In this document: one piece after another, positions 13,214-64,000 of the stretch
How positions within the stretch are numbered: the first letter of the stretch is position 1
Layout of the letters: each line of letters begins with the position of its first letter
Assembly: GCF_003033885.1 (NCBI RefSeq)
Contig: NZ_CP024081.1
Coordinates: 4,354,507 to 4,418,506, forward strand
Direction: 5' to 3'
Origin: Pseudomonas rhizophila
GTDB lineage: Bacteria > Pseudomonadota > Gammaproteobacteria > Pseudomonadales > Pseudomonadaceae
DNA length: 64,000 nucleotides
The notes under the pieces: model-generated
The model's input: only the letters and a program-made list of their open reading frames with translations
Database searches by the model: none
What the model was told of the DNA's origin: nothing
Translations under genes and position numbers: made by a program

Positions 13214-13234
13214 GCCAGGTCGGGTTGGCTTGAA

Positions 13235-14258: not shown

Positions 14259-14591
14259 ATGACCCTTCAGCTTCCCGACGTCGTGCAGACGTACTTTGCA
14301 ATCAGCAATGGTGGCGATACAGCGCAACTTGCGAGCTGCTTCCGCTCTGACGCCACGGTTTGCGATGAAAGAAAAACGTACGAAGGAACGGCTGCCATCG
14401 AAGCCTGGCAACAGGAGGCACGCAGAGCCTTCATCTATCAGGTCCAGCCACTGCAAGCCCTGCAAGGGCAGGGCGAGCTGACGGTCATTGCGCGCCTTGT
14501 TGGGAATTTCCCCGGTAGCCCGGTTCAACTGAGTTACCTCTTCACACTGGAAGGCGGTCTAATCCGTTCCCTGGAGATCACGCCATGCTGA
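14259..14591 (+). CDS. NTF2/SnoaL-like domain protein
   Basis: This is a 110-residue protein starting at 14259, chosen because an AGGAG ribosome site lies 8 bases upstream (14246-14250); an in-frame ATG at 14184 lacks one. The sequence [20 protein letters not shown], then [14 protein letters not shown], is the cone-shaped NTF2-like fold commonly annotated as nuclear transport factor 2 family. Members are small-molecule isomerases, lyases or accessory domains; no catalytic pair can be assigned. It overlaps the next gene (SDR) by 7 bases, and the two are commonly paired in oxidoreductase operons under LysR control. Confidence 0.8.
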
Positions 14592-15361
14592 ATCTAGGTT
14601 TGACTGGCAAGCGGGTCCTCGTCACCGGTGGCACCAAAGGCATCGGCAAGGCTGTCGTCGAGTTGTTACTGGCCGAGGGTGCGAAGGTCATTACCTCGGC
14701 CAGGCAGGTGGACGTGGAAATGCCGGGCGCTCTTCTGATTGCGGCTGATCTGTCGACCCGGGAAGGTTGTGATGTACTGATCGCCGCGATCCAACAGCGG
14801 CTGGGTGGCGTGGACATCATGATCCACGTCCTGGGTGGTTCGTCGGCACCCGGCGGCGGTTTTGCTGCGCTGGACGAGGAACAGTGGCAACGAGAGCTCA
14901 GCTTGAACCTGTTGCCGGCGGTGCGCCTCGATCGCGCTTTGCTCCCGGGGATGCTGGAGCGCAGGGAAGGGGTCGTCATCCACGTCACCTCCATCCAGAG
15001 TCGGCTGCCACTGCCGGAGGCTACAACAGCTTACGCGGCGGCCAAGGCCGCGCTTTCGACGTACAGCAAAAGTTTATCGAAAGAGGTTTCGCCCAGAGGC
15101 GTCCGCGTGGTTCGGGTTTCGCCGGGCTGGGTTGAAACCGAAGCGTCGGTCGCATTGGCCGAGCGACTCGCGCAGGAGGCAGGTACTGACTACCAAGGCG
15201 GCAAAGAGATCATCATGAACGCACTTGGGGGTATCCCGCTCGGCCGCCCATCGACGCCTCGCGAAGTTGCTGACCTGATCGGTTTCCTGGCTTCGCCGCG
15301 AGCGGCATCTATCACGGGAAGTGAGTTTGTGATCGACGGCGGAACAGTACCAACGGTTTAG
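14585..15361 (+). CDS. SDR-family oxidoreductase
   Basis: This 258-residue short-chain dehydrogenase has the cofactor loop [11 protein letters not shown] (about 16-26) and an Asp (AADLS) after the second strand, which usually goes with NAD. The catalytic Tyr-Lys pair is YAAAK (about 150-154), with a Ser in VTSIQ. The common NNAG motif is replaced by VLGGS, a change seen in one SDR subgroup. It has the C-terminal [12 protein letters not shown]. It is translationally coupled to the NTF2-like gene. The substrate is unknown; a small carbonyl or hydroxyl compound is likely. Confidence 0.88.
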
Positions 15362-15436
15362 CCGTGAGGTAGATCCGACAGGCATAAGCAGGAAGGCCGT
15401 GCCATCAAAGACCGAGCAGGTTGTACCGCCAGCCCA

Positions 15437-16486
15437 TCAGCTTTGGGTATTTTCCGATGTCACAATCTGCAGCGGAATATGCACCCGGTGACGCACAGGA
15501 TCGAACTGCTGCGCAGTCTGCAATTCCACCATCAGATTCACCAGCGCCGTTGCGGTCTGGCGCGGCTGAGAGTCGATCACCACGTCGACCAAACCTTGGG
15601 CCAGGGCTTGACGTGACAGCTCGGTGGACTCCTGCAAAATGCAGCACAGCGTCGGGCGCTTGGGCAGTTGCGCCAACGCGTTGATGATCCCGTCGCCACC
15701 GCCGCCTACCACGCATAACCCGCGCAAATCGCTATGCCGAACCAGCAGGTCGAGGGTTGCTTCCTCGGTGATGTCGCAGTTATCCAGATTGATCAGCGGC
15801 TCCAGCGGGCGCAACCCAGGTGCGTGTTCGGCCAAGTAACTGTGCAAGCCTTCGACCCGCTCCTGGTGGCCAAGAAAGCGATGGCCACCGAGCAGGATGC
15901 CGATGCTGCCTTTGCGCGCGCCACAGGTGCGGGCCAGCAGCCACCCCATCGTGCGCCCGACTACTTGATTGTCCTGGCCGACATAGGGCTCGGCCGCCGC
16001 CTCATGAATGCCCGACAGCAGTGCCACCACGGGCACTCCGGCCCCGCGAATCTGGGCAAGGGCGGCGTTGATCAGCGGGTGGGCGAAGCTGACCACCGCC
16101 AGGCCGTCGCATTGCACTGCCAACTGTTCGATCTGGGCAATGATGGCGCTGGGGGCGCGATCAAAAACGTATTCGAATTGGCAGGTCAGGTTGGCTCCGG
16201 CCTGGCGCTGCGCGGCATCGGTGATGGCTTGGGCCAGGTTGGCGTAGAACGCCTGGGCGGTGCCCAGCAGCAGGATGCCGAAACGGTACGTGGGGCGACG
16301 TTCGAGAATGCGTTGGCCGATCAGCCGCGCGGCAAAATAACCCACGGCTTCGGCGGCCTGAAGCACCTGTTCGGCAGTGGCTGGATTAACCGGGGCGCGA
16401 GCGTTGAGCACGCGGTCGACGGTGGCGACACTTAAGCCTGCGTGTTCGGCGACCGTGGCGATGGTGGGGCGTTTATTGTTATTCAT
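15437..16486 (-). CDS. LacI-family transcriptional regulator
   Basis: This 349-residue protein has the N-terminal LacI helix-turn-helix and hinge (TIATVAEHAGLSVATVDRVL, then NARAPVNPATAEQV) and a periplasmic-binding-protein-like effector domain (about 65-345; RFGILLLG, LAVVSFAHP, GSIGILLGG). The GLSVATVDRVLN recognition helix and FAARLIGQR hinge variant resemble regulators of inositol/sugar-type catabolism. It is divergent from the mocD-like operon. Two CTTGATAG-containing inverted repeats lie in the intergenic region, so autoregulation and repression of the operon with release by the sugar substrate are likely. Confidence 0.9.
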   Translation of the reverse strand: MNNNKRPTIATVAEHAGLSVATVDRVLNARAPVNPATAEQVLQAAEAVGYFAARLIGQRILERRPTYRFGILLLGTAQAFYANLAQAITDAAQRQAGANLTCQFEYVFDRAPSAIIAQIEQLAVQCDGLAVVSFAHPLINAALAQIRGAGVPVVALLSGIHEAAAEPYVGQDNQVVGRTMGWLLARTCGARKGSIGILLGGHRFLGHQERVEGLHSYLAEHAPGLRPLEPLINLDNCDITEEATLDLLVRHSDLRGLCVVGGGGDGIINALAQLPKRPTLCCILQESTELSRQALAQGLVDVVIDSQPRQTATALVNLMVELQTAQQFDPVRHRVHIPLQIVTSENTQS

Positions 16487-16504
16487 GATGAACCTTCAAA
16501 GCGT

Positions 16505-16524
16505 CTTGATAGAAAACTATCAAG
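16505..16524. promoter_or_regulatory. Probable LacI-type operator, perfect inverted repeat
   Basis: CTTGATAG and CTATCAAG flank AAAA, a perfect 8-bp inverted repeat. It lies 19 bases upstream of the LacI gene start and 125 bases upstream of the mocD-like start. A perfect palindrome in a divergent LacI-controlled intergenic region is the expected operator. Confidence 0.75.
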
Positions 16525-16546
16525 CCCCGCAGGAGCTGGATGATAG

Positions 16547-16568
16547 CTTGATAGGGAATGTATTCAAG
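16547..16568. promoter_or_regulatory. Second, imperfect copy of the LacI-type operator
   Basis: CTTGATAG at 16547-16554 is followed after six bases by TATTCAAG, a degenerate match to the CTATCAAG half of the upstream site. It precedes a plausible -10-like TATATT near 16597-16602 and so is placed to block transcription of the mocD-like operon. Two sites 42 bases apart would suit cooperative LacI-family binding. Confidence 0.55.
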
Positions 16569-16648
16569 CCCTTGAGGGGGTCTTCCACGCTCTCTATATT
16601 TTCTTACGCAAAGCACCTGACATCTCACGCTTGCGGAGAACAATAACA

Positions 16649-17737
16649 ATGTCTCAAGACAACACCGCCTCTACTCGGGACTATCGCCTGACCGGCCCTG
16701 AAGCCGCACGCGCGGCTGAAAAAGGCCTTGTATCGGCCAGTTGGTACCAGTCGCCCATCTCCCGTCAACGCATGAAGCAACTGATGCAGCGCCGCGACGG
16801 TCCGGCCTTGCTCGACACCGCCATCTGGCTGCTGGCCCTGCTGATCACCGGCTTCGGCGGCTACTGGTTCTGGGGCACTTGGGCTTGTGTGCCGTTTTTT
16901 CTTGCGTATGGCGTTCTGTACGCCACCGCCTCCAACCCGCGCTGGCATGAAACCGGCCACGGCACAGCTTTCAAGACTCGCTGGATGAATGATGCGCTCT
17001 ACCAGGTGGCGAGCTTCATGTGCATGTTCGAGCCCCATGTGTGGCGCTGGAGCCATGCCCGGCACCATACCGACACCATCGTCGTCGGCCGCGATCCGGA
17101 AATCGTCGAACCGCGTCCACCGAGCTTGTTCATGATGCTGCTGAGCCTGTTCCAGATCCCGTTGCTGCTGAAGACGATGGGGGGCGTGTGCCGGCACGCG
17201 GTTGGCAAAATGGATGCCCAGGAACAGACGTTCATCCCTGAGTCCGAATGGCCCAAGGTGTTCCTGGCGGCCCGTATCTGGCTCGTGATTTACGCGGTTA
17301 TCTTTGGCGCGGCGCTTTACCTGCACAGCTGGTTGCCGCTGATGTATATCGGCCTGCCCATCCTGTATGGCGGCTGGTTGTCCTACCTGTTTGGCCTCAC
17401 CCAACATGTAGGCCTGGCGGAAGACGTGCTGGACCACCGCAGCAACTGCCGCACCATCTATATGAACCGGGTACTGCGCTTTCTGTACATGAACATGAAT
17501 TATCACCTTGAGCACCACATGTACCCGATGGTGCCGTACCACGCCCTGGCGCAACTCCATGAAGAGATCCGCCACGACTGCCCGCCGCCTTACGCCAACA
17601 TAGGTGAGGCCTTCAAGGAAATCATTCCGACCCTCTTGAAGCAGCGCAAGGACCCGACGTATTTCGTGCGACGCCCCGTCGGTAGCTCAAGGCCTGCCAC
17701 CGACGCTCATCCACAGGCTGAAGCCACCCTGGGCTGA
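16649..17737 (+). CDS. MocD-like membrane di-iron desaturase/hydroxylase
   Basis: This 362-residue membrane protein starts at 16649 (MSQDNTASTRDYRL). It has the three histidine boxes of membrane di-iron desaturases and hydroxylases: HETGHG (about 100), HARHH (about 137) and HLEHH (about 289). Four or so hydrophobic segments lie around 57-95 and 205-265. Database entries call such proteins fatty acid desaturases. Next to a Rieske ferredoxin and a ferredoxin reductase, it matches the rhizobial mocDEF set, where MocD is the oxygenase component that removes the methyl group from 3-O-methyl-scyllo-inosamine. The substrate here is unknown; an O-methylated or hydroxylated sugar or inositol is a fair guess given the LacI regulator and the isomerase. 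Confidence 0.85.
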   Translation: MSQDNTASTRDYRLTGPEAARAAEKGLVSASWYQSPISRQRMKQLMQRRDGPALLDTAIWLLALLITGFGGYWFWGTWACVPFFLAYGVLYATASNPRWHETGHGTAFKTRWMNDALYQVASFMCMFEPHVWRWSHARHHTDTIVVGRDPEIVEPRPPSLFMMLLSLFQIPLLLKTMGGVCRHAVGKMDAQEQTFIPESEWPKVFLAARIWLVIYAVIFGAALYLHSWLPLMYIGLPILYGGWLSYLFGLTQHVGLAEDVLDHRSNCRTIYMNRVLRFLYMNMNYHLEHHMYPMVPYHALAQLHEEIRHDCPPPYANIGEAFKEIIPTLLKQRKDPTYFVRRPVGSSRPATDAHPQAEATLG

Positions 17738-17773
17738 CACCCTCCGGCTGTATCCCGAACAAGAGAAAACGCC

Positions 17774-18094
17774 ATGAACGATCAATGGATCGATGTATGC
17801 GCCGTGGGCGAAATCAATGAAGAAGATGTCATTCGCTTCGACCACGGTCCGCATACCTATGCCATCTACCGCTCTGCTGACAACGAGTTTTTTGCCACCG
17901 CTGGCCTGTGTACTCATGAGTCGATCCGCCTGGCTGACGGCCTGGTGATGGACCACGTCATCGAGTGCCCCAAGCACAACGGGCGCTTTGACTATCGCAC
18001 CGGCAAAGCCTTGGGGGCGCCAGTGTGCGTCAACCTCAAGACCTTTCCGGTACGGGTCGACGCGGGGCGGGTTCTGCTCGCCATTTCAGCTTGA
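17774..18094 (+). CDS. MocE-like Rieske [2Fe-2S] ferredoxin
   Basis: This 106-residue protein has the Rieske cluster ligands CTH (about residue 55) and CPKH (about residue 74), a Cys-x-His and Cys-x2-His pattern separated by 16 residues. It is the small soluble ferredoxin type that feeds electrons to oxygenases, not a membrane Rieske. It sits 36 bases after the desaturase gene and 18 bases before the reductase gene, so the three form an electron chain NAD(P)H to reductase to ferredoxin to oxygenase. Confidence 0.92.
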   Translation: MNDQWIDVCAVGEINEEDVIRFDHGPHTYAIYRSADNEFFATAGLCTHESIRLADGLVMDHVIECPKHNGRFDYRTGKALGAPVCVNLKTFPVRVDAGRVLLAISA

Positions 18095-18112
18095 CCGCCA
18101 GGAGTGCACGCC

Positions 18113-19345
18113 ATGAATGCTCCACTGATTATCGTCGGCGCCGGCCATGCCGGTGGCCGCGCGGCGCTGACCTTGCGCGAGCAGGGTTATACCGGTCGGC
18201 TGATCCTGATCGGCGATGAACTCCATTTGCCGTACGAGCGTCCTCCGCTGTCCAAGGGCTTGCTGCAGGGCACGATGGACCTGGACGATTGCCGCCTGTG
18301 GAGGGATAGCCGGCTCACTGAACTGAACATCGAACACCTGGCGGGCAACCCGGTAAAAAGCCTGGATCCGCAGCACCACCGCCTGCAATTGACCGACGGA
18401 CGTTGGTTGCCCTACAGCCGATTACTGTTGGCGACCGGGGGCAGAGCGCGTCGCTTGTCCCTGGTGCCTGAACCTCTGGCCAACGTGCTTTACCTGCGCA
18501 CCCATGACGAAGCCCTGGCCCTGCGCAGCGCATTGATCCCCGGCACGCGCCTGGTGATCATCGGCGGGGGCTTTATCGGCCTTGAGGTCGCGGCAACGGC
18601 CCGAACCTTAGGCTGTCAGGTGACGTTGCTGGAAGCCGGGCCACGACTGGCCGGGCGAGTCTTGCCTGAAGCTGTGTCCCAGGCCTTGTTGGAATTGCAT
18701 CGGCAACAGGGCGTAGACGTGCGGCTGAACGTAGCGCTTGAAAGGGTACAAGGCATCGAACGCGCTGAGGCGGTGCAACTGGTGGACGGCCAGGTGCTGC
18801 CCTGTGACTGGGTGGTAGTCGGTATCGGCATGCAACCCAACGTCGAATTGGCCGCGGCGGCGGGGCTTGAGGTGGGCCAGGGTATTCGAGTCGATGCCCA
18901 GTTGCGCACCAGCGCGCCAGACATCTTTGCTGCCGGCGATGTGTGTGAGTTTCGCCTGCACGCCGACGCGTTATTCCAGCGCCAGGAAACCTGGCGCAAT
19001 GCCGAGACCCAGGGCCGTCACGCGGCATTGAATCTGTTGGGTGGCGAGCTGCCGTTCGAGGGGGTTCCCGGCTTCTGGTCTGATCAGTACGACTGGGGCT
19101 TACAGACGGTGGGCGTGATCCCACCGACGCCACCTTCGGCCGTTCGCACCTTGGCAGGCGGTGGTCTGCTGCTGTTCTACCTGGACACCGAGCAACGTTT
19201 GCAAGGCGCCTGCGGCTGGGGGCAGGGCAACAGCGTTGCCAAGGACATCAAGTTGTGTGAACGGCTGATTGCCAACCTGACTCCACTCTCTGTGGACGCA
19301 TTGGCCGACGCCGATGTCTCGCTCAAACATCTGCTAAGGCCCTGA
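18113..19345 (+). CDS. FAD-dependent ferredoxin reductase (MocF-like)
   Basis: This 410-residue protein starts at 18113 behind AGGAG (18099-18104 region). The FAD-binding motif is VGAGHAGGRAA (about 7-17), the NAD-binding motif GGGFIGLEVA (about 151-160), and the second FAD motif IFAAGDVCEF (about 276-285). This is the rubredoxin/putidaredoxin reductase family. It would reduce the Rieske ferredoxin encoded just upstream. All nucleotide motifs look intact. It is followed after one base by the isomerase gene, so it is part of the same operon. Confidence 0.93.
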   Translation: MNAPLIIVGAGHAGGRAALTLREQGYTGRLILIGDELHLPYERPPLSKGLLQGTMDLDDCRLWRDSRLTELNIEHLAGNPVKSLDPQHHRLQLTDGRWLPYSRLLLATGGRARRLSLVPEPLANVLYLRTHDEALALRSALIPGTRLVIIGGGFIGLEVAATARTLGCQVTLLEAGPRLAGRVLPEAVSQALLELHRQQGVDVRLNVALERVQGIERAEAVQLVDGQVLPCDWVVVGIGMQPNVELAAAAGLEVGQGIRVDAQLRTSAPDIFAAGDVCEFRLHADALFQRQETWRNAETQGRHAALNLLGGELPFEGVPGFWSDQYDWGLQTVGVIPPTPPSAVRTLAGGGLLLFYLDTEQRLQGACGWGQGNSVAKDIKLCERLIANLTPLSVDALADADVSLKHLLRP

Positions 19346-52446: not shown

Positions 52447-54150
52447 TCACACCGGTTGCTTCACCTTCCGATGCACCCATCGTGCTTCGCTTTGCAGCTC
52501 CAGGACCTGCCAATGGAAGCGCTCAAGCGAAGCATTGTGGCCGACGCTGATCAGGATCGTTTCTGGCAGCGTCTCTTTGAGCAGTTGATAGCAGCGCGCC
52601 TCGTTGGTTGAATCCAGTGCCGAACTGCTCTCGTCGAGGAACAGCACCGTCGGGCGGGCCAGCAGGGCCCTGACGAACGCACAGCGTTGCTGTTCGCCGA
52701 CGCTGAGGGTCTGCGCCCAGTCCCGCTCTTGCTCCAACAGATCGCTCAGGTGCTGCAGGCCAACTTGCTCCATGGCCTGGCGCAGCGCGGCATCTTCTTC
52801 GCGACGGGGTGGGTTGGGGTACCACAGCGCTTCACGCAGACTGCCCAACGGCAGGTAGGGTTTCTGCGCAAGCGTCAGGGCACGCTCACGGTCATAACAG
52901 CTTGAGCCGCGAGCGTGATGCCAAAGCCCGGTAATCGTGCGGATCAGCGTTGATTTGCCGTAGCCGGACGGCGCGCGGATCATCAGGCTGTCACCGGGCT
53001 TGAGCGACAGATTGAAGTCTTTGAACAACGGCCGGCCGTTCGGCAGCCAGATGTCCAGGTCCTTGATATCGAGACCGTGGGCCTGTTGTTCGAGCCTGAC
53101 CTGGGACTTGACCTCAACGTTATCCAGGCGCTCCTGGAAGCCGATCAAGCGGTCAATCACCGACTTCCATTCCGACAGCTCCGGGAACACGCTCACCAGG
53201 TAGGCGATGGCGGCGTGCACTTCGCCGAAGGCCGCGCTTATCTGTGTCAGGCGGCCGAGGGGAAAGGCGCCGGCAAAGAACTGTGGCGCCATGATGAACA
53301 TCGGGATGACCGTCGCGCTGCGCAAGTAGAAGGTCGAGTAGCCCATGATCAGCTTCTGTTTTTTCACCAGCGCCCAGAAGTTTTCCAGCGCCGCCTCCAG
53401 GCGGTGGTTGAAGCGTTCGTTCTCTACGACTTCGCCGCGGTATTGCGCTACCGAGTCAGCGTTCTCCCGCAGGCGGATGAGCGAGAAACGAAAATCCGCT
53501 TCACGTCGCTGCTGCATGAAATTCAGGCTGGGCAGCGCGCGTCCCAGCCAGAAGGCCAGGCCGGTGCCCAGGAGCGCATACACCAGGGCGATCCACACCA
53601 GCAGTCCCGGAATGATGATGGACTGGTCGTTGAACGGCACGCTGACCAGGCTTGAGGCCTGCCAGAGGATATGCAGGAAGGAAAACAGCGACACCACCGA
53701 AGTCAACAGGCCCAGGCTCAATTTGAGCGACTTGACGATGAACAGGTCGATGTCTTCGGCGATCCGCTGATCGGGGTTGTCGACCTCGGTTTCTGTCAGC
53801 TTCAGCTTCTGGTAGCGCTGGCTGTCCAGCCATTGATCAAGCATGTTGCGGGTCGCCCAGCGCCGCCAGCGGATGGTCAGCTTCTGCTGGAAGTGGAACG
53901 CGCCCACGGTGAAGGCGGCCGTGCCGATCTGCAGCAGGATGAACTGCAGGCTGCCGATCAGGAAACCGTGGTAGTCCAGGGCCTGCAAGGCATTATAGAA
54001 ATGCAGGTTCCAGAAGTTGGTGAGGATGTTGACCCCGACCAGGCACAGGGTCATCAGCACGGTGGCCAACAGCAGCAACAGGGCCGGGTACTTTTCCTCG
54101 GATGCCCAGAAAGGCCGCGCGAGACGCCAGAAATTGCGGAGTGTGTGCAT
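52447..54150 (-). CDS. SbmA/BacA-type ABC transporter, permease fused to ATPase
   Basis: This is a 567-residue protein. The N-terminal membrane domain (about 20-345) has six helices and the SbmA/BacA features NLHFYNALQALDYHGFL, RWATRNMLDQWLDSQRYQKL and NPDQRIAEDIDLF. The C-terminal ATPase (about 365-560) has the P-loop GYGKST (APSGYGKSTLIRTITGLW), signature LSVGEQQRCAFVRALLARP and Walker B VLFLDESSSALD. It resembles YddA. Next to the siderophore genes it may move siderophore or peptide, but such genes also occur without them. It is divergent from fhuF across a Fur-like site. Confidence 0.9.
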   Translation of the reverse strand: MHTLRNFWRLARPFWASEEKYPALLLLLATVLMTLCLVGVNILTNFWNLHFYNALQALDYHGFLIGSLQFILLQIGTAAFTVGAFHFQQKLTIRWRRWATRNMLDQWLDSQRYQKLKLTETEVDNPDQRIAEDIDLFIVKSLKLSLGLLTSVVSLFSFLHILWQASSLVSVPFNDQSIIIPGLLVWIALVYALLGTGLAFWLGRALPSLNFMQQRREADFRFSLIRLRENADSVAQYRGEVVENERFNHRLEAALENFWALVKKQKLIMGYSTFYLRSATVIPMFIMAPQFFAGAFPLGRLTQISAAFGEVHAAIAYLVSVFPELSEWKSVIDRLIGFQERLDNVEVKSQVRLEQQAHGLDIKDLDIWLPNGRPLFKDFNLSLKPGDSLMIRAPSGYGKSTLIRTITGLWHHARGSSCYDRERALTLAQKPYLPLGSLREALWYPNPPRREEDAALRQAMEQVGLQHLSDLLEQERDWAQTLSVGEQQRCAFVRALLARPTVLFLDESSSALDSTNEARCYQLLKETLPETILISVGHNASLERFHWQVLELQSEARWVHRKVKQPV

Positions 54151-54349: not shown

Positions 54350-55033
54350 TTGAGCCAGCTTGCCGACCCTGGCGTACTGCAACCCTTGCTGACCCGGTTT
54401 GCCTTGCGTTACCCAGGGGTGAACCGCGCCGCCGTGGTTTCGCAGTGGTCGATGAACTACATGAGTATCGTCCTGCCGGCCACCCTGGCCTGTGTGCTGA
54501 CGCGTCGCTGCGCGATCGAGTTCTGGGGCGAGGACGCATTGCTGTTGCACGACGACGGCCAACCTGCGGCGCTGGGCCTGGCCGCCGGACTGTCAGCCTT
54601 GGACGCGGATGGCCGTGCGGTGTACTGGTCGCGGTTGATCCACGAGCACCTGGCGCCGCTGTTCAGCACATTGGCCACCGCCGGTGGCCTGGCCCCGAAA
54701 ATATTGTGGGGCAACTTCGTTGCTATCTGGGACGGTGCCTTTGCCAGAATGGACCCTGACCTGTCCAAAGACGGTTTTGCCGAGGCGCACCAGTGGCTGG
54801 AGCAGGTCACGGTGAACAACGGACGCTTGAAGCTGCGAGGCCTGCAACGCATGGTCGAATCACCGGCGCCGCAGATTTGCCCGTGCTTGCCATTGCGCCG
54901 GCATTGTTGCCTGCATTACCAACTGCACGAGCCGGTCGAAGGCCAACCGCCGGTGCTCTGCGAATCCTGCCCCAAGCTGCACCGTCTGCCGCTGGCGGAG
55001 CAGGTGAGCTATTTGCATTACATCTATGAGTAG
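54350..55033 (+). CDS. fhuF: FhuF-family siderophore-iron reductase
   Basis: The FhuF [2Fe-2S] reductase has the signature C-terminal Cys cluster: HCCLHYQL (Cys-Cys), then CESC ten residues on (Cys-x2-Cys), preceded by another CPC. The earlier region (VVSQWSMNYMSIVLPATLA, RCAIEFWGEDALLL) is also typical. It reduces ferric siderophore in the cytoplasm to release iron. The TTG at 54350 gives 227 residues, but homologous-looking sequence (EFPEWLNQAWPPIQRVI) continues upstream to about 54224 with no ATG, GTG or TTG. The true start may be a rare codon near 54236 or the N-terminus may have changed. Confidence 0.85.
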   Translation: MSQLADPGVLQPLLTRFALRYPGVNRAAVVSQWSMNYMSIVLPATLACVLTRRCAIEFWGEDALLLHDDGQPAALGLAAGLSALDADGRAVYWSRLIHEHLAPLFSTLATAGGLAPKILWGNFVAIWDGAFARMDPDLSKDGFAEAHQWLEQVTVNNGRLKLRGLQRMVESPAPQICPCLPLRRHCCLHYQLHEPVEGQPPVLCESCPKLHRLPLAEQVSYLHYIYE

Positions 55034-55211: not shown

Positions 55212-56861
55212 TCAAGTGGACAGCATTTGCGCCAGGGGCACGGCGTCAGCCTGGGGAGCGACTTCACTGAGCTTGCCATGTTCGATGCGGATCAGCCGGT
55301 CGGCCAGGCCGAAGTAGGCGTCGTCGTGGGAGATGACGATCAGTAGTTTGCCGCGTTCGCGCAGGTCCGGCAGGATCCGGGTGTAGAAGAAGTGCTTGAA
55401 CACCGGGTCCTGGTCGGCCGCCCATTCGTCGAACAGGTAGCAGGGGCGATCATCCAGGTACGCACTGAGCAGCGCCAGGCGCTTGCGTTGCCCGGTGGAC
55501 AACGCCAGCGTCGTCAGTTTGCCGTCCTCGATTTGCACCTTGTGGTCCAGCTGCAGGTGCACCAGGTAGTCCTGTGCCTGTTTCACCAGGTGCGGATCGT
55601 CGCCATCGAACAGGTTTTCGAACAGGCAGAAGTCGGTGAAGATCGCTGAGAAGTGCTGTCGGTAATGGTGATTGTCATTGCTCGAGGACACTTGTTCGTC
55701 GAGCATGACGTCGCCGCTTTCCGGCCGGTACAGCCCTGTCAGCAACAGCGCCAGGGTGGTCTTGCCGCTGCCGTTGCCGCCGGTGATGAACACCACTTCG
55801 CCGGCATTGAGGGTGAGGTTGATGGGGCCCAGGGTGAAGTGACCGTCCTCGCGCTCGCGGTAGTAAGTGTGGGTGACCTGGCGGCACACCAGGCTGCGAA
55901 CCTGGGTCGGCGAGATCGTCTCGACGGTTTCGTCGGCGGTTTGCATCTCGCCTTCCAGGGCGCGGATCTTGTTCAGGGCCACGCTGGCCCGACCGAGGGT
56001 CGGCAAGGCGTGCATCAGCTCCGACAACGGCGTGATCATGTAGAGGATCGCCAGGATATAGCCGGTGACCAGGCTCGCGCTCAGGTCGATGAAATGCGGC
56101 GCGGCGAACAGCACCACACCGATCAGCATGTAGAACACCGCATTGCCCCAGTTCAGGACCAGGGCGTAGATGCTCATGCCCCGTACAAAATCGCGGCGGT
56201 ATTGCTGGCTCACCGGTATCAGCAGGCGGGTGAAGAAGTGCTGCCGGCGCGGATGGTTGAGTTGCAGTTCCTTGCTGCCATCGGTGAGCAGGCGGTACTG
56301 ATTGAACAACTGGTCCTTGAGCTCGCGAGCACGGGAGATCGAGGTCAGCGCCCGACGTTGCGGCCAGTGAAAGCTCAGGCTGCCCAGGACGATCAGCAGC
56401 AGCGTCAGGCCGAGCAATGGCATGCTGAGCCAACCCAGGTAGCCGAGGCACGCGGCGATGATCCCGACGTTGACCAGCAGGATCGGCACCAACTCCACCG
56501 CCTGGCTGATGGTCTGCGTATCGTCGGTGAGCATCGCCAGCAGGCGATGCTTGCCCAGGCGCTGCAATTGCGCGTAGGGCGTGTCGATCAGCTTGGCGCT
56601 CAGGTGCAGGCGCATGTCGTTGACCGCAGCCTGGCCCAGGCGCAACAGGCTGATGTCGGAGATGATCCGCGACACCGCGACCAACACCACCAGGCCAGCG
56701 AAGAGCAGGCCATCCACCGGGCGCAGCTTGTCGAACACCTCCAGGCTGTGGTTGATGTTGGCGATCAGGCCGGCAGCCGCGAGGCCGCAGATCAACCCCG
56801 TCAGGGTCGCCACCAGCAGTGCGCGCCAGGAGCGTTTAGCCATGAGTAACAACAGATCCAT
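55212..56861 (-). CDS. Cyclic-peptide/siderophore exporter, ABC type (PvdE/SyrD-like)
   Basis: This 549-residue protein starts at 56861 (MDLLLLMAKRSWRALLVATL), one base after the NRPS stop and behind GGAG. The membrane domain (about 1-330) has six helices and DIDTQ-like elements (MLTDDTQTISQAVELVPILL). The ATPase domain has P-loop TGGNGSGKTTLALLLTGLY, signature LSTGQRKRLALLSAYL and Walker B CYLFDEWAADQDP. This is the cyclic peptide exporter family of PvdE, which carries siderophore precursors to the periplasm. Co-transcription with the NRPS genes suggests it exports their product. Confidence 0.93.
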   Translation of the reverse strand: MDLLLLMAKRSWRALLVATLTGLICGLAAAGLIANINHSLEVFDKLRPVDGLLFAGLVVLVAVSRIISDISLLRLGQAAVNDMRLHLSAKLIDTPYAQLQRLGKHRLLAMLTDDTQTISQAVELVPILLVNVGIIAACLGYLGWLSMPLLGLTLLLIVLGSLSFHWPQRRALTSISRARELKDQLFNQYRLLTDGSKELQLNHPRRQHFFTRLLIPVSQQYRRDFVRGMSIYALVLNWGNAVFYMLIGVVLFAAPHFIDLSASLVTGYILAILYMITPLSELMHALPTLGRASVALNKIRALEGEMQTADETVETISPTQVRSLVCRQVTHTYYREREDGHFTLGPINLTLNAGEVVFITGGNGSGKTTLALLLTGLYRPESGDVMLDEQVSSSNDNHHYRQHFSAIFTDFCLFENLFDGDDPHLVKQAQDYLVHLQLDHKVQIEDGKLTTLALSTGQRKRLALLSAYLDDRPCYLFDEWAADQDPVFKHFFYTRILPDLRERGKLLIVISHDDAYFGLADRLIRIEHGKLSEVAPQADAVPLAQMLST

Positions 56862-56862
56862 T

Positions 56863-59800
56863 TCAAACCGCTCCGTGTGTAGCAATGGCCGTGAGACGCG
56901 CCGCCAATTGTTCGTGCAAGGCGCGTTGCTCAAGGATGGTCAGGTGTTGCGCCGTGATGACCTCGCGGGTCAACGGCCCGCTGCTCAGGTCTTCCCAATG
57001 CGGGTCGGCGAAGTCGGCCTGGGCCAGGGTGTCGCTGGCCCACCAGACTTGCACCGGGCAGCTTAGCCGGGCAGGCTTGAAGGTCGCCAGCAGATGCTGC
57101 GTGTGCTGCTGGTAGCGCAGCCGCGTTTGCAAATGCTCCCAACTGTCGCCATCGAGTTGCAGGCCTTGCTGGCGTGCCCACTGCACCAGCTCCGGCAGGC
57201 GTGCCGCTGGGGGCAGGGCGTCCAGTTGCTCCAGCAATGCGGCCATGATCGGTGGCGGCAACCGGCGCATCACGCTCTGGCTGTCCGGTGTCAGCGCTTG
57301 GGAGGCTGACTCCAGCAGCGCCTCGACACTGTCTTCTGGCGCTTGATGCTGGTACTGCGAGTCGATGATACCGAGAAACGCCACTGCTTGGCCCTGGCTT
57401 TCCAGGCGCGCGGCCGCAGCAATCGCCAGCAGACCACCAAGGGAGAAGCCCAGCAGGTGGTACGGCCCCTGGGGTTGCTGTTGGCGCAGGTGCTCGACAT
57501 AGAGCGCGGCGAGGCTCTCGATATCGCCGCCCAGCGTTGTGCTGTCGTCGCTCAGGTACGCCGCCTGCAAGCCCCACAGATGCCAGGCCGACAGCGGCGC
57601 CAGCAGCGTGCGGTAATCCTGCACGTGGCCGGTGGAGGGGTGGAAGCAGAACAGGTTGGCGGCTTCGACAGCGCTTGGCGCCGACAACCGCACCAGCGGC
57701 GAGAGTTTGAGTTCGGCCTGCACCAATGCTGCAAATGCCGAGACGCTCGGGGCGTTGAACACCGCATTGACCGTCACTGGTGCCGACAGCGCGGTCTGCA
57801 GGCGACTGGCAAGCGTCACCGCCGCCAGGGAATGGCCGCCCAGCTCGAAGAAATCATCGTCGATGCCCACTCGCTCCAGGCCCAGCACCTGTGCCCAGAC
57901 CTCGGCGAGCAAGGCTTCCAGCGGCGTGCGTGGCAAGGCACTGCCGACCGTGTCGAGGACTTTGTCAGCCCATTGCTGCAGGGTCTTGCGGTCGAGCTTG
58001 CCGTTGCCCATCAGGGGCAAGGCTTCGACGATCCGCAGGGTGGGCAGCATGTAGTCCGGCAAGCAATCCTGGGCCTGGCCATGCAGCCTGGCGACTGTGG
58101 TCGAATGCCCGGGCGCCAGGGTCATGAAGGCGAACAGTTGGTGGCCGAGCTCGCCGCGAGGGATGCATTCCACCGCGGCCTGGGCCACACCGGGAAGGCT
58201 GGTCAACTGCGCCTGGATCTCGTCGAGTTCCACGCGGAACCCACGGATTTTCACCTGACGGTCGGCCCGCCCGGTGATCTCCAGGCTGCCGTCATGGCGA
58301 TAGCGGGCCATGTCGCCGGTGCGATAGAGGCGTTCGCCCGGCCGATGTGCCAGCTCGATAAAACGTCCGGCGCTTTGTTGCGTGTCCAGATACCCGCGGG
58401 CCAGTTGCGGGCCGGCGATATACAGCTCGGCGCTTTGCCCTGGGGCGGCCAACGCTTGCTGCTCGTCGAGCAGGTACAGGCGCATGCCGTCGAGGCGGTC
58501 GCTGAGGGGCAGGCGACGATAATCTACGCTCGGATCGGCTTTGTGCATCACCACCCCAACGGTGGTTTCGGTCGGGCCGTAATGGTTGAAGACCGTTAGC
58601 GCCGGAGCAAGGCTGCGAATGCTTTGCAGCAGGCGCCGCGAGCAGCTTTCGCCACCGAGAACCAATTGCTTGCGCGGCAACACGGCAGCGCTTTGGGCAT
58701 GAATCAACCAGGCGTCGAGCAACGACGGCACGATCTTCAGGTGATCGATCGGGTACTGCGCCTGCCAGGCTGCCCAGGCCTGGGCGTCCATGGCCGTTTC
58801 CTTGTCCAGCAGGTGCAATTCGCCGCCGCTGAGCAGGGCCGGGAACAGCAACGTGTAGCCCAGGTCGGCCGCCAGTGAGGTGACCACTGCACTGTGTTCG
58901 CCTGCGGCCAGTTGCAAGCGCCGGGATACGCTGGCGACATAACTGGCCAGCTGTTGGTGCTCGACGATGACGCCTTTGGGTGTACCGGTGCTGCCGGAAG
59001 TGAACAGCACGTAGGCCGCGTCCTGTCCTTGGATCTCGACGTTGGTTGCAGTCGTTGGCGCTTGCTGCCAGGCCGCTTCCTCGCGCAGGTCGAGGCTGCC
59101 GATGCCCGGCAACGCAGGGGCGCTGCCGGCCGAGCCGCTGAGTATGAAGGTCGGCTGGGCTTGTTGCAGGATCGCCAGCGAGCGTTGTGCCGGCTGATGC
59201 ACATCCAGGGGAACGAACGCCGCGCCGCTCTTGAGCACGGCGAGCATGGCCAGGACCATCTGTGCCGAGCGATCCAGGTACAGCGCCACGCGATCTTCGC
59301 GACCCACGCCCTGGGCGCGCAGGAAATGCGCCAGTTGGTTACTGCGGGCCTGCAGTTGGGCATAGCTCAACTGCCCATTGGGGTCGCGCAGGGCCAAATA
59401 TTCGGGAAACTGCGCGGCACATTCATCGAAACTCGCCGGCACGCTGGTAAACGGCAGTGCCGCAGCGTCGGATGGCGCCTGCAGGGCGGTCAGCGTTGCG
59501 GTAAAACTCGGCGCCTGCACTGACAGTTCGGCCAGGGGCTTGCCTGGGTTGGCCAGGGCATCGAGCAGCAGCGATTGGAGTTGCTCCAGCAGGACCAGGG
59601 CGGCCTGTTCGCTATAGCGGCCCGGCAGGTGGCAGAGGTTCAGGCGATAGCCGCCAGCGGTCGTTTCGGCCACCAACAGCAGCTCCATACCGGCGGGGAT
59701 GGCCTGTGCGTCCAGCACCGTGAGCGTCGACGCCATGCTGCCCAAGGTGTCGAGTCGATCGGGCAACTGCCCACCCCACTGGAAGCCGTACTGCAAAGTG

Positions 59801-60699
59801 TCGGCCGGCAGTGCAGCGCTGACGCCGCAGTATTCCTGCCATTCGGTGGCTTGCTCGCAGAGCACCTGCAGGTTCGCCAGCGCCTGGGCAAACTGGCTGT
59901 CCGCCGCCGCTTGCCAGCGCAGGGGCAAGGGCTTGGCGAACAATCCCCAGCAATCGGCGAGTTCTTCATAGTCGTCGCGGCAATCGTGGACCCAGTTCAA
60001 GGTCAGTGCCGGGCTGTCGCCGCTGCTCAGGCGCTGCAACAGCACGCCCCAGGCCGTCATCAGCACTTGTTCGGGCGATGCGTCGTGACGTTGGCAAAAG
60101 CTGTCCAGGGCCATGCTCAACTGTGGGTTGGCGCTCAAGCGAGTGGTCACCGGGGCGTCGGAGCGGTCGCTGCGAACCTCACGGTAGAGCAACTCGCTGG
60201 CGGCCGCTTCGTCCAAGGCTTGGCTGGCCCAGAAACGCCGGCCAGGCTCGGCGTCTTCATCGGCCTGCAATTCGTAGAGCCAGGCGCTGTACTGGGTATA
60301 GGTCATCGCCTCGTCATCCACCGATGGCGCCTCTATCGAGCCCAATGCCTGCGCCAGGCGCAGCAAGGTCCCGCGATCCGCGCTCAGCGCCGGCAGTTGC
60401 AGCGTGACCCGCTGCCGATCGCCGTCGAGCGCTTGCACCTCGACGCTGATGGCGTCCGTGGCCGTGACCGTGGATTCAACCACTTGCAAGGGCATCAGCA
60501 AACCTGGCTCTGGCCGTACCCGCAGGCGCAGGGCCTCGTGACACACGCTCAGGGCGGCGAGTCGTTGGTGAAGACGCTCCAGGGCCAACGGGCCTTTTAT
60601 TTCCAGTTCCAGGCGCGCCGCTGGCAATCCCGCCAACCACTGGCTGCGTTGTTGGGGCGAGAGGGCGAAGGCTTCTTCGCGAGTTTCAAAGGCGCTCAT
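56863..60699 (-). CDS. Terminal NRPS module: degenerate C/interface-A(Asp)-T-TE
   Basis: This is a 1278-residue protein whose ATG overlaps the upstream stop (ATGA). An N-terminal condensation-like domain (about 10-400) keeps LSPQQRSQWLAG and HEALRLRV, but the HHxxxDG place reads ALSADRGT, so it cannot condense. The A domain (about 440-900) includes LFTSGSTGTPKGVIVEHQQL, FNHYGPTETTVGVV and YRTGDMARYRHDGSLEITGR. Its specificity residues, aligned to GrsA, read D-L-T-K-V-G-H-V-G-K, the Asp code. The carrier domain is DDDFFELGGHSLAAVTLASR (about 970). The TE (about 1030-1275) has GFSLGG as nucleophile elbow. The exporter gene follows by one base. Confidence 0.92.
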   Translation of the reverse strand: MSAFETREEAFALSPQQRSQWLAGLPAARLELEIKGPLALERLHQRLAALSVCHEALRLRVRPEPGLLMPLQVVESTVTATDAISVEVQALDGDRQRVTLQLPALSADRGTLLRLAQALGSIEAPSVDDEAMTYTQYSAWLYELQADEDAEPGRRFWASQALDEAAASELLYREVRSDRSDAPVTTRLSANPQLSMALDSFCQRHDASPEQVLMTAWGVLLQRLSSGDSPALTLNWVHDCRDDYEELADCWGLFAKPLPLRWQAAADSQFAQALANLQVLCEQATEWQEYCGVSAALPADTLQYGFQWGGQLPDRLDTLGSMASTLTVLDAQAIPAGMELLLVAETTAGGYRLNLCHLPGRYSEQAALVLLEQLQSLLLDALANPGKPLAELSVQAPSFTATLTALQAPSDAAALPFTSVPASFDECAAQFPEYLALRDPNGQLSYAQLQARSNQLAHFLRAQGVGREDRVALYLDRSAQMVLAMLAVLKSGAAFVPLDVHQPAQRSLAILQQAQPTFILSGSAGSAPALPGIGSLDLREEAAWQQAPTTATNVEIQGQDAAYVLFTSGSTGTPKGVIVEHQQLASYVASVSRRLQLAAGEHSAVVTSLAADLGYTLLFPALLSGGELHLLDKETAMDAQAWAAWQAQYPIDHLKIVPSLLDAWLIHAQSAAVLPRKQLVLGGESCSRRLLQSIRSLAPALTVFNHYGPTETTVGVVMHKADPSVDYRRLPLSDRLDGMRLYLLDEQQALAAPGQSAELYIAGPQLARGYLDTQQSAGRFIELAHRPGERLYRTGDMARYRHDGSLEITGRADRQVKIRGFRVELDEIQAQLTSLPGVAQAAVECIPRGELGHQLFAFMTLAPGHSTTVARLHGQAQDCLPDYMLPTLRIVEALPLMGNGKLDRKTLQQWADKVLDTVGSALPRTPLEALLAEVWAQVLGLERVGIDDDFFELGGHSLAAVTLASRLQTALSAPVTVNAVFNAPSVSAFAALVQAELKLSPLVRLSAPSAVEAANLFCFHPSTGHVQDYRTLLAPLSAWHLWGLQAAYLSDDSTTLGGDIESLAALYVEHLRQQQPQGPYHLLGFSLGGLLAIAAAARLESQGQAVAFLGIIDSQYQHQAPEDSVEALLESASQALTPDSQSVMRRLPPPIMAALLEQLDALPPAARLPELVQWARQQGLQLDGDSWEHLQTRLRYQQHTQHLLATFKPARLSCPVQVWWASDTLAQADFADPHWEDLSSGPLTREVITAQHLTILEQRALHEQLAARLTAIATHGAV

Positions 60700-63600
60700 G
60701 CCTGCACCTCCGCAGCCAGCGGCGGCTGTGCTTCGGGCAGGCAACCGGTCAATTGTTCGCGACGCATCATCTGGCCCATGGCGACACAGATCTTGCGCTC
60801 ACCCTCGAAGGGATCCCGAGCGTGGGCCACCAACATATTGTCCAGCATCACCATGTCACCCTTTTGCCAACTGAAACGTACCGCGCAGTCTTCATAAGCC
60901 TCGCCGATCACTTGCATCACTGCGTCTTCAATCACGCTGCCATCGCCGTAGTACACGTTGCGTGGCAAATGTCCGGGGCCGAACAGGCTGATCAGGTTGC
61001 TGCGCACTTCCGGCTCCAGGCAGGCGGTGTGGTGCAGTTGCACCTGGTTGAAGAACGACAGTTCCAAGGTCTCGGGATGCTCGACGATGGCCGGGCAGTG
61101 CTGGGCGATCCGCAGGTTGTCGGCCCCCAGCCATTCCCAGCGCATGCCCGACGCCAGGCATTGGCGCTCGACTTCCTCACGCTGTTCGGTCTTGAAGAAG
61201 TCCTGCCAGCGCACATCCAGCTTGTCGGTGAAGTGCCGCACGTACAGCAGCCCCAGGGCCTTGAAGCGAGCGACGATGTCCTCGGGCAAGCGCGCCAGCA
61301 CCTGCCGGCAATCGACGATGGGCGTGCAACCGCCCCGCGGCGCCGGCGTTTCGCAATAGAACCACTGCTTGCGTGGCCACTGCGGCAGATGGGAGCTCTC
61401 GTTGTGGAAGAGAATCATGTGCTGTTCCGGGTACGGCGTGGAGTGGTAGATGTTCTTGCCGGACTTGTTTTTCGGCAGGTCACCGTAGGTCCCGTAGAGG
61501 TCGGGTTCGATGGCCTGGGCGAACTGTTCGAAAGCGCTGGCATCCGGCAGGTTGAAACCCCGGAACAGCAGGCCACCGTGGGTCAGCAGCTGTGCATTGA
61601 TCCATTCCCGCGCTTGCAGCGCCCAGTGCACCGGGTCCAGGTCGCCGAGCAACGGCTCGATCACCAACGGCAAGGCTTGCCCGGCGCTGAGGGTGCGGGT
61701 CCGGACCTGCTCATGGGCCACCTGGCTCACAGCGGTTGCACGGGTCTGCTTGAGCTTGCTCAATTTGGACTGCTTGCGCGCGCTGCGGGCCGTGGCTTCG
61801 TCGAGCGACGAATTCGCCAGGGACGTTGCGCTGGCGTTGCCACCCTCAAGGCGCCACGACCAATTGTCCAGCGCTTGTCCCGGGGGCGAGACGATCTGCT
61901 CCAACAGGCTCTCGAAGCCTTGTTCGAGGCGCTGGATGGTCGGCTCGTGCAACACGCTGGTGCGATACACCCAGCGCACATTCAGGCCTTGATCTTCGTC
62001 CTCTTCGACAAACACGGCGAGGTCGAACTTGCTGCTTTCCTGGCGTGATACCAGGTGTTCCACCTCAAGGTCCGGCAGGCTGGCATTGCCGCTGGGGGTG
62101 TTCTGCATGACGAACAGCACCTGGACCAGGGGATTGACCCCTGGTGTACGCGGCGGTTGCAGTTCCTCGACCAGTTTGTCAAACGGCACCTGCTGGTGCT
62201 GGAACGCCGACAGGCAATCCTCGCGCAAGCGTTGCAGACGGGCGTCAAAGCTTTCGCCCTCGCTCAGGCGGGCACGGATCGGCAGCACGTTGACGAAGAA
62301 GCCAATGAGATGCTCCAGGGCCGGATGTTCGCGGTTGGCCAGGTCGGTGCCGACGATAAAGTCGTTGGTCCCGGTGGCCCGTTGCAACAGGCTGTTGAAG
62401 GCATTGAGCAGGACCATGAACAGCGTCGCCCGCTGCTGTTGAGCATAGGCCTTGAGCACCTGGGCCTGGGCCGGTGTGAAGCGTTGTTCCAGGGCCGCCC
62501 CCTGATAGTCGGGACGCGCCGGGCGTGGCTGGTCAAGCGGTAGCGGGATCAGCGTTGGCGCGCCGTCGAGTTGGCGGCGCCAGTAGTCGATGGCCCGTGC
62601 CAGCAGGCGCTGTTGGGTTTCGCTGCGTTGCCAGTAGGCATAGTCGGCGAACTGGATCGGCAACACCGGCAGCACCGGTGTCGAACCGCTGGTACGAGCC
62701 TGGTACCCGACGATCAGCTCCTGCATGAGGATGCCCATGGACCACGCATCGGTGGCGATATGATGCAGCACCAATTGCAGCACATGATCGACGGCGCCCA
62801 GGCGCAGCAGACTGGCGCGCAACATCGGCGCCTGTTGCAGATCGAACGGGCGTGCCGCCTGTTCATCAATCAAGCGTTGCAGGGTTTGCGCTTGTTCCTC
62901 GTGGTCGAGGTGACTCAGCTCGGTCGGCGTCAGGTCAACCCGCGGTGCCGGGCTGATGACCTGGCAAGGCTGGTCGCCGTGGAGATGGAACGCCGTGCGC
63001 AAGGACTCATGGCGTTCGAACACGGCCTGCAACGCCGCTTGCAGCGCTGCGACGTCCAGCGCACCACGCAGCCTGATGGCGGTGGTCATGTTGTAGGCGG
63101 CGCTGGGGCCTTCGAAGCGATCCAGGAACCACAACCGTTGCTGGCTGTAGGACAGCGGCAATGGCTGGTTGCGTGGCGCCAGGGCAATCTCGCTGTTGCC
63201 GTCGGCCTCGGTCTGGGCGTCGCGTTGCTGATCGACCGCTTCGGCCAATTGTTCCAGGGTGCCACGCTCGAACAGCGTGCGCAGCGGCAGGTTCACGTTC
63301 AACCGTCGGCGAATCCTCGACAACACCTGGGTGGCCAGCAACGAGTGACCGCCGATGGCGAAGAAGTCGTCGTGCACACCGACGGTGTCCAGGCCGAGAA
63401 TTTCCTGCCACAGCTCGGCCAGGACCTGCTCGGTCGGCGTGCGCGGTGCCAAGCACTGCGCCTGCGCCGTTTCGTCCTGGGGCACACCCAGGGCGGCGAG
63501 GGCGCGACGGTCGACCTTGCCATTGGCGTTCAGCGGCAATTGCGCAAGGGCCAGCCAACGGGCTGGAACCATGTAGCTTGCCAGCTGCTGGCCCAGGTAA

Positions 63601-64000
63601 GCGCTCAAGACCTGTTGCGCGGACTCGCCGCCCAGGTTGGCCGTGTCGTCGAGCACATACCAGGCCACCAGTTGCAACGCCCCGCGGGCGTCGGGCAGTG
63701 CCAGCACCGCCGCGCTGTCCACCGCTGGGTGTTGCATCAGGCGGTTTTCGATCTCGCCCAGTTCGATGCGGTGGCCACGAATCTTCACTTGCTGGTCGCG
63801 CCGCCCGAGGTATTCGATCACGCCATCGGCGCGCATCCGGCCGATATCACCGCTGCGATACAGCCGCGCATCGGCCTGGAACGGGTGCGGAACAAAGGCT
63901 TCGCGGGTGCGTTGCGGGTCGCGCAGGTAGCCGCGACCGACGCCGACACCACCGATGCACAATTCGCCGGGTACACCGACAGGGACCAGGCGCAGCGCCG
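60696..64000 (-). CDS. NRPS with C-terminal TauD/SyrP-like hydroxylase (5' end outside window)
   Basis: At least 1100 residues are visible; the gene continues past 64000. The visible order begins with the A-domain end (VGVPGELCIGGVGVGRGYLR, LYRSGDIGRMRADGVIEYLG, NGKVDRRALAAL). A carrier domain follows (DDFFAIGGHSLLATQVLSRI). Next is a condensation domain (LPLSYSQQRLWFLDRFEGP; active motif HHIATDAWS; RHESLRTAFHL-type). The C-terminal 320 residues are a TauD/TfdA Fe(II)/oxoglutarate oxygenase of the SyrP Asp beta-hydroxylase kind, with the HxE metal motif HNESSHL, a distal His (LVAHARDPFEGERKI) and the oxoglutarate Arg. It overlaps the terminal NRPS by 4 bases. Its adenylation specificity residues lie outside the window. 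Confidence 0.93.
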   Translation of the reverse strand, partial: ALRLVPVGVPGELCIGGVGVGRGYLRDPQRTREAFVPHPFQADARLYRSGDIGRMRADGVIEYLGRRDQQVKIRGHRIELGEIENRLMQHPAVDSAAVLALPDARGALQLVAWYVLDDTANLGGESAQQVLSAYLGQQLASYMVPARWLALAQLPLNANGKVDRRALAALGVPQDETAQAQCLAPRTPTEQVLAELWQEILGLDTVGVHDDFFAIGGHSLLATQVLSRIRRRLNVNLPLRTLFERGTLEQLAEAVDQQRDAQTEADGNSEIALAPRNQPLPLSYSQQRLWFLDRFEGPSAAYNMTTAIRLRGALDVAALQAALQAVFERHESLRTAFHLHGDQPCQVISPAPRVDLTPTELSHLDHEEQAQTLQRLIDEQAARPFDLQQAPMLRASLLRLGAVDHVLQLVLHHIATDAWSMGILMQELIVGYQARTSGSTPVLPVLPIQFADYAYWQRSETQQRLLARAIDYWRRQLDGAPTLIPLPLDQPRPARPDYQGAALEQRFTPAQAQVLKAYAQQQRATLFMVLLNAFNSLLQRATGTNDFIVGTDLANREHPALEHLIGFFVNVLPIRARLSEGESFDARLQRLREDCLSAFQHQQVPFDKLVEELQPPRTPGVNPLVQVLFVMQNTPSGNASLPDLEVEHLVSRQESSKFDLAVFVEEDEDQGLNVRWVYRTSVLHEPTIQRLEQGFESLLEQIVSPPGQALDNWSWRLEGGNASATSLANSSLDEATARSARKQSKLSKLKQTRATAVSQVAHEQVRTRTLSAGQALPLVIEPLLGDLDPVHWALQAREWINAQLLTHGGLLFRGFNLPDASAFEQFAQAIEPDLYGTYGDLPKNKSGKNIYHSTPYPEQHMILFHNESSHLPQWPRKQWFYCETPAPRGGCTPIVDCRQVLARLPEDIVARFKALGLLYVRHFTDKLDVRWQDFFKTEQREEVERQCLASGMRWEWLGADNLRIAQHCPAIVEHPETLELSFFNQVQLHHTACLEPEVRSNLISLFGPGHLPRNVYYGDGSVIEDAVMQVIGEAYEDCAVRFSWQKGDMVMLDNMLVAHARDPFEGERKICVAMGQMMRREQLTGCLPEAQPPLAAEVQA

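Follow-up and report, generated by a model that had tools for sequence, protein, structure and literature searches.

Interface (I) domains of nonribosomal peptide synthetases (NRPSs), and the I-beta-H(Asp) pairs in which they occur, were reportedly described by Reitz et al. in 2019. An interface-domain profile is part of antiSMASH 8 (stated in a passage of PMC12230676), and TauD domains adjoining aspartate (Asp) adenylation (A) domains are described in sections of PMC8949500. For potashchelin, the abstract and results of PMC7100376 link a fused TauD domain to the L-threo and a stand-alone one to the L-erythro configuration; the introduction has the two reversed. Corrugatin, according to a passage of PMC13037486, consists of eight residues and a C8 chain, and the two other members of the family differ by one or two residues. 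We analysed 64,000 nt of the Pseudomonas rhizophila genome (the window; G000:C1:4354507-4418506 within a genome of 5.95 Mb), which contain a terminal NRPS gene and, before it, the 3′ part of a penultimate NRPS gene with a fused TauD-type hydroxylase domain. Very probably the two genes form the last part of an assembly line of the corrugatin family, most likely the one for the iron-scavenging lipopeptide ornicorrugatin, where a dead condensation-like domain docks the fused hydroxylase so that the carrier-bound final Asp becomes beta-hydroxylated.

A terminal module with an interface domain and a fused hydroxylase is of an already known kind, and the one described here departs from it in nothing that we tested. 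As in I-beta-H(Asp) pairs, a dead domain of the condensation superfamily stands by an Asp A domain, with the hydroxylase at the C-terminus of the preceding NRPS. Potashchelin PtcB likewise has an NRPS-terminal TauD domain, followed by a domain labelled C (condensation) and an Asp A domain, with L-threo assigned (results in PMC7100376); the potashchelin pair serves the first residue, whereas the pair in P. rhizophila would serve the last. A cluster of the type of BGC0003174, judged from P. brassicacearum CCUG 51508, has the same eight modules, the fused hydroxylase and the terminal order I-A(Asp)-T-TE (T, carrier domain; TE, thioesterase). Its codes differ from those of the P. rhizophila genome at one place, the terminal A domain (DLTKIGHVGK); a further difference is the break within module 5 in the P. 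rhizophila assembly.

Interface domain and fused hydroxylase of the terminal module

The first domain of the terminal NRPS belongs to the condensation superfamily by its profile score (Table 1). A first-pass annotation of the window had proposed that both catalytic His residues of this domain are gone, and this was borne out: the aligned active-site stretch reads P103-A-L-S-A-D108-R109. An HHxxxDG motif elsewhere in the domain is ruled out, as its 421 residues contain neither HH nor HHxxxD[GA]. The ten-residue code proposed for the A domain that follows was recovered by alignment as DLTKVGHVGK, which we take to be an Asp code; a non-Asp code was rejected on the same alignment. The upstream NRPS was found by domain searches (PF00668, PF02668) to end in A-T-C-TauD, as had been suggested, so that the fused enzyme stands behind an intact C domain. 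With a motif formed by HxE at residue 865 and H at 1059 (numbering of the in-window part), this enzyme is predicted to be an aspartyl beta-hydroxylase.

The hydroxylase domain was searched for in 398 Pseudomonadota genomes, and its co-occurrence with other domains was surveyed independently of the published interface profile. The search gave 36 matches in 24 genomes. Eight matches in six genomes scored at least 399 bits (next best, 278), and seven of the eight were fused behind a C domain at an NRPS end, including two from the genome of the window. Together with four cases from chosen relatives they made a set of 11 fused cases from 10 genomes; a twelfth (G004, A code DLTKIGHVG) was left uncounted because its motif falls in an alignment gap, and other fused frames in a sample of 298 Pseudomonas genomes lie outside this count.

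The domain that follows the fused hydroxylase lacked the second catalytic His in 11 of 11 cases and both His in 10; the C domain directly before the hydroxylase had both in all 11. In a table of 126 C and epimerization (E) domains, built after dropping six short C fragments, both His were present in 92 of 92 other domains, the remaining dead ones being seven module-1 starters and five E-like domains. Chance loss of HHxxxDG is ruled out by the contrast of 11/11 with 92/92. A domains behind the fused cases read DLTK[VI]GHVGK without exception (11/11). Hydroxylase and I domain were split over two proteins in every one of the 11 cases, and the split is not special to this locus. The ATGA join between the two genes, also proposed earlier, is present in the DNA; the same 4-base overlap was seen in nine of the 11, the start lying 4 bases past the stop in genome G334 and ∼25 bases past it in G056. 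Such consistent co-occurrence of fused hydroxylase, interface domain and Asp A domain allows one to predict from sequence where beta-hydroxyaspartate stands in the product and probably also its configuration.

Phylogenetic trees gave a similar picture. In a quick tree of 102 C/E-type domains (without rows from G001 and G003; the row L099, labelled E, is a cut-off C domain) a branch with support 100 separated all 14 dead starters from the rest, and nine C domains preceding hydroxylases formed one clade at 99. A tree with five outgroups placed 24 of 24 interface domains on one branch at 100/100. The first-pass reading of the module as one of interface-associated Asp hydroxylation is thus supported at the level of sequence, by the single clade and by the 11/11 pairing with a hydroxylase and an Asp-type A domain. 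In the hydroxylase tree the 11 fused enzymes lay on one side of a 100/99 branch, which also held two stand-alone rows, L083 (SyrP-like) and L104_5671 (on a very long branch). L083, from genome G196, is the eighth of the high-scoring matches, a stand-alone hydroxylase of the fused class adjoining an A-T protein; the pair presumably resembles SyrP and SyrB1 of a syringomycin-type cluster. Syringomycin-type enzymes are placed inside the fused-hydroxylase clade in a passage of PMC12971057. The window's genome has another C-TauD unit (G000:C1:3088508-3096591), followed by a dead domain and an A domain of Asp type, in what looks like the pyoverdine cluster. Among the NCBIfam families listed (the best 25 of 103 and of 86 for the window proteins; also those for both stand-alone hydroxylases) there was no model specific to I domains or to these hydroxylases.

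The first domain could instead be a decayed C domain without a present role, redundant with the C domain upstream. That both His are gone while a working C domain sits upstream would agree with decay, as would the ratios of nonsynonymous to synonymous substitutions (dN/dS): 0.18, 0.20, 0.18 and 0.31 against four relatives, compared with 0.03-0.18 for the catalytic C domains of the upstream NRPS. All four values are far under one, which indicates purifying selection on the I domain; moreover, its rate alone is no mark of decay, since dN/dS of the TE domain is comparable (0.12-0.23). The domain is full length and part of one deep clade. In an alignment of the query with 33 of the 120 listed homologs (34 sequences; 29 to 98% identity), 41 positions do not vary, including A107 and D108 of the former active site. 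The domain pairs with a hydroxylase in 11/11 cases, and it is present in three genomes without the fused hydroxylase, where the module reads His (see below). We regard decay as very improbable and retain the docking role for this domain.

Assembly line and predicted product

An acyl-ligase-type starter and eight modules are contiguous in P. brassicacearum CCUG 51508 and lie in two pieces in the window's genome. The cluster of P. fluorescens SBW25 comprises PFLU3220 and PFLU3222-3225 (PMC4528175). The CCUG 51508 cluster starts with a putative receptor frame, a stand-alone hydroxylase (TauDa), an acyl-ligase-like starter with a C domain and a second stand-alone hydroxylase (TauDb). Module 1 is I-A(DSALIAEVWK, His)-T; modules 2-5 are C-A(Dab)-T-C-A(DSAELGTVDK)-T-C-A(Ser)-T-C-A(Ser)-T-E (Dab, diaminobutyrate); modules 6-7 are C-A(Asp)-T-E*-C-A(Dab)-T-C-TauD (E*, the dead E-type domain discussed below); module 8, I-A(Asp)-T-TE, is followed by an ABC (ATP-binding cassette) exporter. 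The residues assigned to the A codes, and octanoyl as the acyl group, are our assumptions, taken in part from the name.

For octanoyl-OHHis-Dab-Orn-Ser-Ser-OHAsp-Dab-OHAsp (OH, hydroxylated residue; Orn, ornithine) the calculated [M+H]+ is 1048.491, and after subtraction of two H2O the calculated m/z is 1012.469 (2+, 506.738; 3+, 338.161). The values given for ornicorrugatin of P. brassicacearum DSM 13227 (cluster BGC0003174) in the part of PMC12971057 that deals with it are 1012.46, 506.74 and 338.17. One hydroxyl fewer would give 996.47. The agreement is support and not proof, since the composition was fitted with the name known and the water losses were chosen to fit. This mass, together with the relatives P. 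brassicacearum, P. corrugata and P. mediterranea, supports the earlier guess of a corrugatin- or ornicorrugatin-type product.

We consider it improbable that the product is corrugatin itself or a new member of the family rather than ornicorrugatin. The module-3 code DSAELGTVDK does not by itself name its residue, the assignment to ornicorrugatin rests on sequence for this strain, and corrugatin has Dab at the place of Orn in ornicorrugatin (as a passage of PMC4528175 has it). The A domain of module 3, however, is absent in 12 of 12 P. corrugata entries examined and present in the window's genome, in P. brassicacearum and in P. mediterranea, which weakens the case for corrugatin. Furthermore, the nearest contiguous cluster examined is that of P. 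brassicacearum (terminal protein 92% identical, against 85% for P. corrugata), and it is from a different strain of P. brassicacearum that ornicorrugatin has been measured.

In the P. corrugata entries (proteins P0243-P0249 and P0251-P0255; frame 10793-18295 of locus L158 in strain DSM 7228) module 3 is C-T, and seven of the 12 are full length, 4159 aa. The A domain is also absent in P0267, P0268 and P0282, one of which is named Massilia violaceinigra, and it is present in P0250, P0256, P0257 and P0258. Loading of the A-less module-3 carrier by a neighbouring Dab A domain may explain why corrugatin has Dab and ornicorrugatin Orn. The missing A domain would then be a simple account of the difference between the two products, with the changed position in the published structures taken as module 3.

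A different objection concerns the target of the fused hydroxylase: it might act on another residue, such as Asp-6, and leave the terminal Asp unmodified. Asp-6 has an identical code and is specified by the same protein. Nevertheless, stand-alone TauDa is found in 20 of 20 synthetase-bearing Pseudomonas genomes (298 sampled), the terminal-His genomes without the fused hydroxylase (3/3) still have Asp-6 and TauDa, and the reported mass fits three hydroxylations in total. Such a reassignment appears to us a shade less probable even than decay of the first domain, and we keep the terminal Asp as the substrate.

We infer the docking, timing, release and stereochemistry of the terminal step as follows. 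Asp would be loaded onto the terminal T domain, and the interface domain would hold the fused hydroxylase of the upstream protein beside this carrier, the beta-hydroxyl being added while Asp is carrier-bound. The upstream C domain, with its HHIATDA motif, would make the last peptide bond, joining the heptapeptide to the hydroxy-Asp held by the terminal protein; the TE domain would then release a linear lipopeptide ending in beta-hydroxyaspartate. By analogy with potashchelin (results in PMC7100376), L-threo beta-hydroxyaspartate would be expected at residue 8. Two hydroxyaspartates and one hydroxyhistidine would provide three iron ligands.

Several points weigh against this reading. As noted above, dN/dS is higher for the I domain than for the C domains of the upstream NRPS, and contact between I domain and hydroxylase is deduced from sequence. 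One of the 11 fused cases, G334, has the first His (HPLAADG); in another, G056, the dead domain is spread across two overlapping reading frames; and most of the 11 are orthologs or come from one genus and are not independent events. The reported mass comes from another strain and was matched with two water losses selected for the fit. Finally, production by this strain is not assured, because the first half of the cluster lies ∼300 kb away in the assembly.

The C domains that precede A domains of Dab type share the motif HHILxDAWC (on the minus strand of the locus, L009:10005-12875; module 2 in L031). Of 413 C-A pairs, which include many orthologs, 59 had a motif ending in WC, 57 had an A domain with a Dab code and 56 had both. 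The set includes the putative PvdL and both Dab modules of the ornicorrugatin line, where two waters are lost; in the product of PvdL, Dab is condensed with the preceding D-Tyr (from a passage of PMC6206403). The motif may mark ring-forming condensation, or common ancestry only. A control with 30 P. corrugata and P. mediterranea loci found no C-A pair with a Dab code outside the siderophore cluster, and so the signature stays confounded with common ancestry.

Lines ending in His and the E-type domain behind Asp-6

In three genomes (G606, G514 and G136; loci L161, L163 and L164) the modules follow one another in the same order, as far as they are covered, and the code of the terminal A domain is DSALIAEVW (His). 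Their penultimate NRPS, of 3052 to 3054 codons, has no hydroxylase, with 54 to 55 residues after the last C domain. The terminal protein still begins with a dead domain, PALHLDSTS taking the place of the motif (with a gap at the first place in G136), and module 6 reads DLTKLGHVG. These lines fit a histicorrugatin-type product (the name is from a passage of PMC13037486, the type is our deduction), with the stand-alone His hydroxylase serving both ends. Compared with the line of the window's genome, module order, TauDa, TauDb and starter kinds are the same; the differences are the terminal His, DLTKLGHVG instead of DLTKVGHVG in module 6 and the absence of the fused hydroxylase, the dead starter being present in both. 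The His-type lines therefore look like a natural swap, His for the terminal Asp, with the fused hydroxylase absent and the dead domain in place. In the tree of 24 interface domains the three terminal ones fall with the His interfaces of module 1 (84/82), which is not significant and is flagged as a long-branch join. A placement with the terminal Asp interfaces was not rejected (p-AU 0.14); one with the pyoverdine-type interface was (p-AU 0.0003).

Behind A(Asp-6)-T stands an E-type domain that groups with E domains (support 99) on a long branch, a join flagged for its length. Pro replaces its second catalytic His, and the ERHGRD motif has been lost. None of the 26 homologs of at least 40% identity has the second His; they were taken from 208 matches, of which the other 182 (those listed at most 35% identical) lie outside the count. 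This His is also missing in each of the 20 genomes with this domain among the 298 of Pseudomonas, 16 having Pro, one Ser and three Ala. TauDa, at 84% identity or more, is found in those 20 of the 298 genomes only (next best, at most 60%). Co-occurrence of TauDa with the dead E-type domain is expected under several readings because both belong to one cluster.

Tentatively, and with more doubt than confidence, the dead E-type domain could be read as an interface for the stand-alone TauDa. Each of the three beta-hydroxylated residues would then have a dead partner of the condensation superfamily, the known interface domains before A(His) of module 1 and A(Asp) of module 8 and the E-type domain at Asp-6, the partners being of two ancestries, and hydroxy-Asp-6 would stay L. 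The dN/dS of the dead domain (0.20, 0.21, 0.21 and 0.36) points to purifying selection and is like that of the two interface domains. The docking reading is weakened by a control, the active E domain of this assembly line, whose values (0.14, 0.12, 0.10 and 0.27) differ only modestly. E domains with both His are present in six clusters of the 398-genome sample that combine a stand-alone hydroxylase with A(Asp)-T-E (L087, L090, L092, L094, L095 and L096). If the docking reading of the dead E-type domain is true, predictions that take the Asp-6 E domain as active are wrong for the corrugatin family. The passages on epimerization in a part of the corrugatin literature do not mention a dead E domain; we do not claim that it is unpublished.

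Break in the assembly and gene layout

The first half of the cluster is located at G000:C1:4723807-4746378, on the opposite strand, and includes the TauDa gene (G000:C1:4726083-4727093). The break lies inside the module-5 A domain (G000:C1:4746374 and 4427819-4427918), one side adjoins a run of 100 N, and 82 bases of module 5 are missing between the halves relative to P. brassicacearum, where the halves abut. In P. brassicacearum, modules 4 and 5 have A domains with 93.5% DNA identity; three other assemblies (G002, G004 and G514) are interrupted in or next to these modules, which is also where the second contig of G136 starts. A passage of PMC4528175 has the cluster split over two contigs in all of its strains. 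For these reasons the break is probably an assembly fault at the near-identical Ser modules. A genuine rearrangement splitting the cluster in this genome is less likely, even though the join on one side carries no N.

The positions of the features are given in Table 1. The full frame of the penultimate NRPS (G000:C1:4415202-4425452) has 3416 codons, of which the last 1100 are inside the window and the rest beyond its edge. For the terminal gene, the ATG at 60699 in the overlap is a likelier start than the TTG at 60744 of the open reading frame list.

Table 1. Features of the terminal part of the cluster (window coordinates unless a genome or locus coordinate is given)
Feature	Position	Strand	Evidence
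Epimerization-type domain behind A(Asp-6)-T	G000:C1:4420983-4422230 (outside window); L009:12984-14231	-	tree, motifs
Penultimate NRPS, 3′ part: end of Dab-type A, T, C, fused TauD	60696..63998	-	domain searches
Module 7 T (carrier) domain	63234..63425	-	PF00550
C domain, intact HHIATDA at 62745-62765	61863..63161	-	PF00668, 350.5 bits
Fused Fe(II)/2-oxoglutarate hydroxylase domain	60729..61718	-	PF02668, 162.7 bits; tree
ATGA overlap of terminal gene start and upstream gene stop	60696..60699	-	DNA letters
Terminal NRPS, 1278 aa, interface-A(Asp)-T-TE	56863..60699	-	domain searches
Interface (I) domain, PALSADR replacing HHxxxDG at 60373-60393	59437..60699	-	PF00668, 68.3 bits (cut-off 30.6)
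Terminal A domain, code DLTKVGHVGK (Asp)	57955..59430	-	code read by alignment
Terminal T domain	57721..57912	-	PF00550
TE domain, putative peptide release	56905..57657	-	PF00975
ABC transporter open frame downstream of terminal gene	55212..56933	-	85-96% identical, same place, in 4/4 relatives
FhuF-like ferric reductase	54350..55033	+	PF06276; 76-95% identical in 4/4 relatives
SbmA/BacA-like ABC transporter	52447..54150	-	PF06472, PF05992, PF00005

The terminal protein is 96% identical to that of P. tehranensis, 92% to that of P. brassicacearum and 85% to those of P. mediterranea and P. corrugata. An exporter and FhuF had been noted nearby in the first-pass annotation; both are there and, with the SbmA-like ABC protein, lie downstream of the terminal gene in 4/4 relatives. 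The ABC transporter next to the terminal gene is likely the siderophore exporter. The SbmA/BacA-like transporter, 81-95% identical in 4/4 relatives (one copy is cut at the edge of its stretch), probably belongs to the cluster as well.

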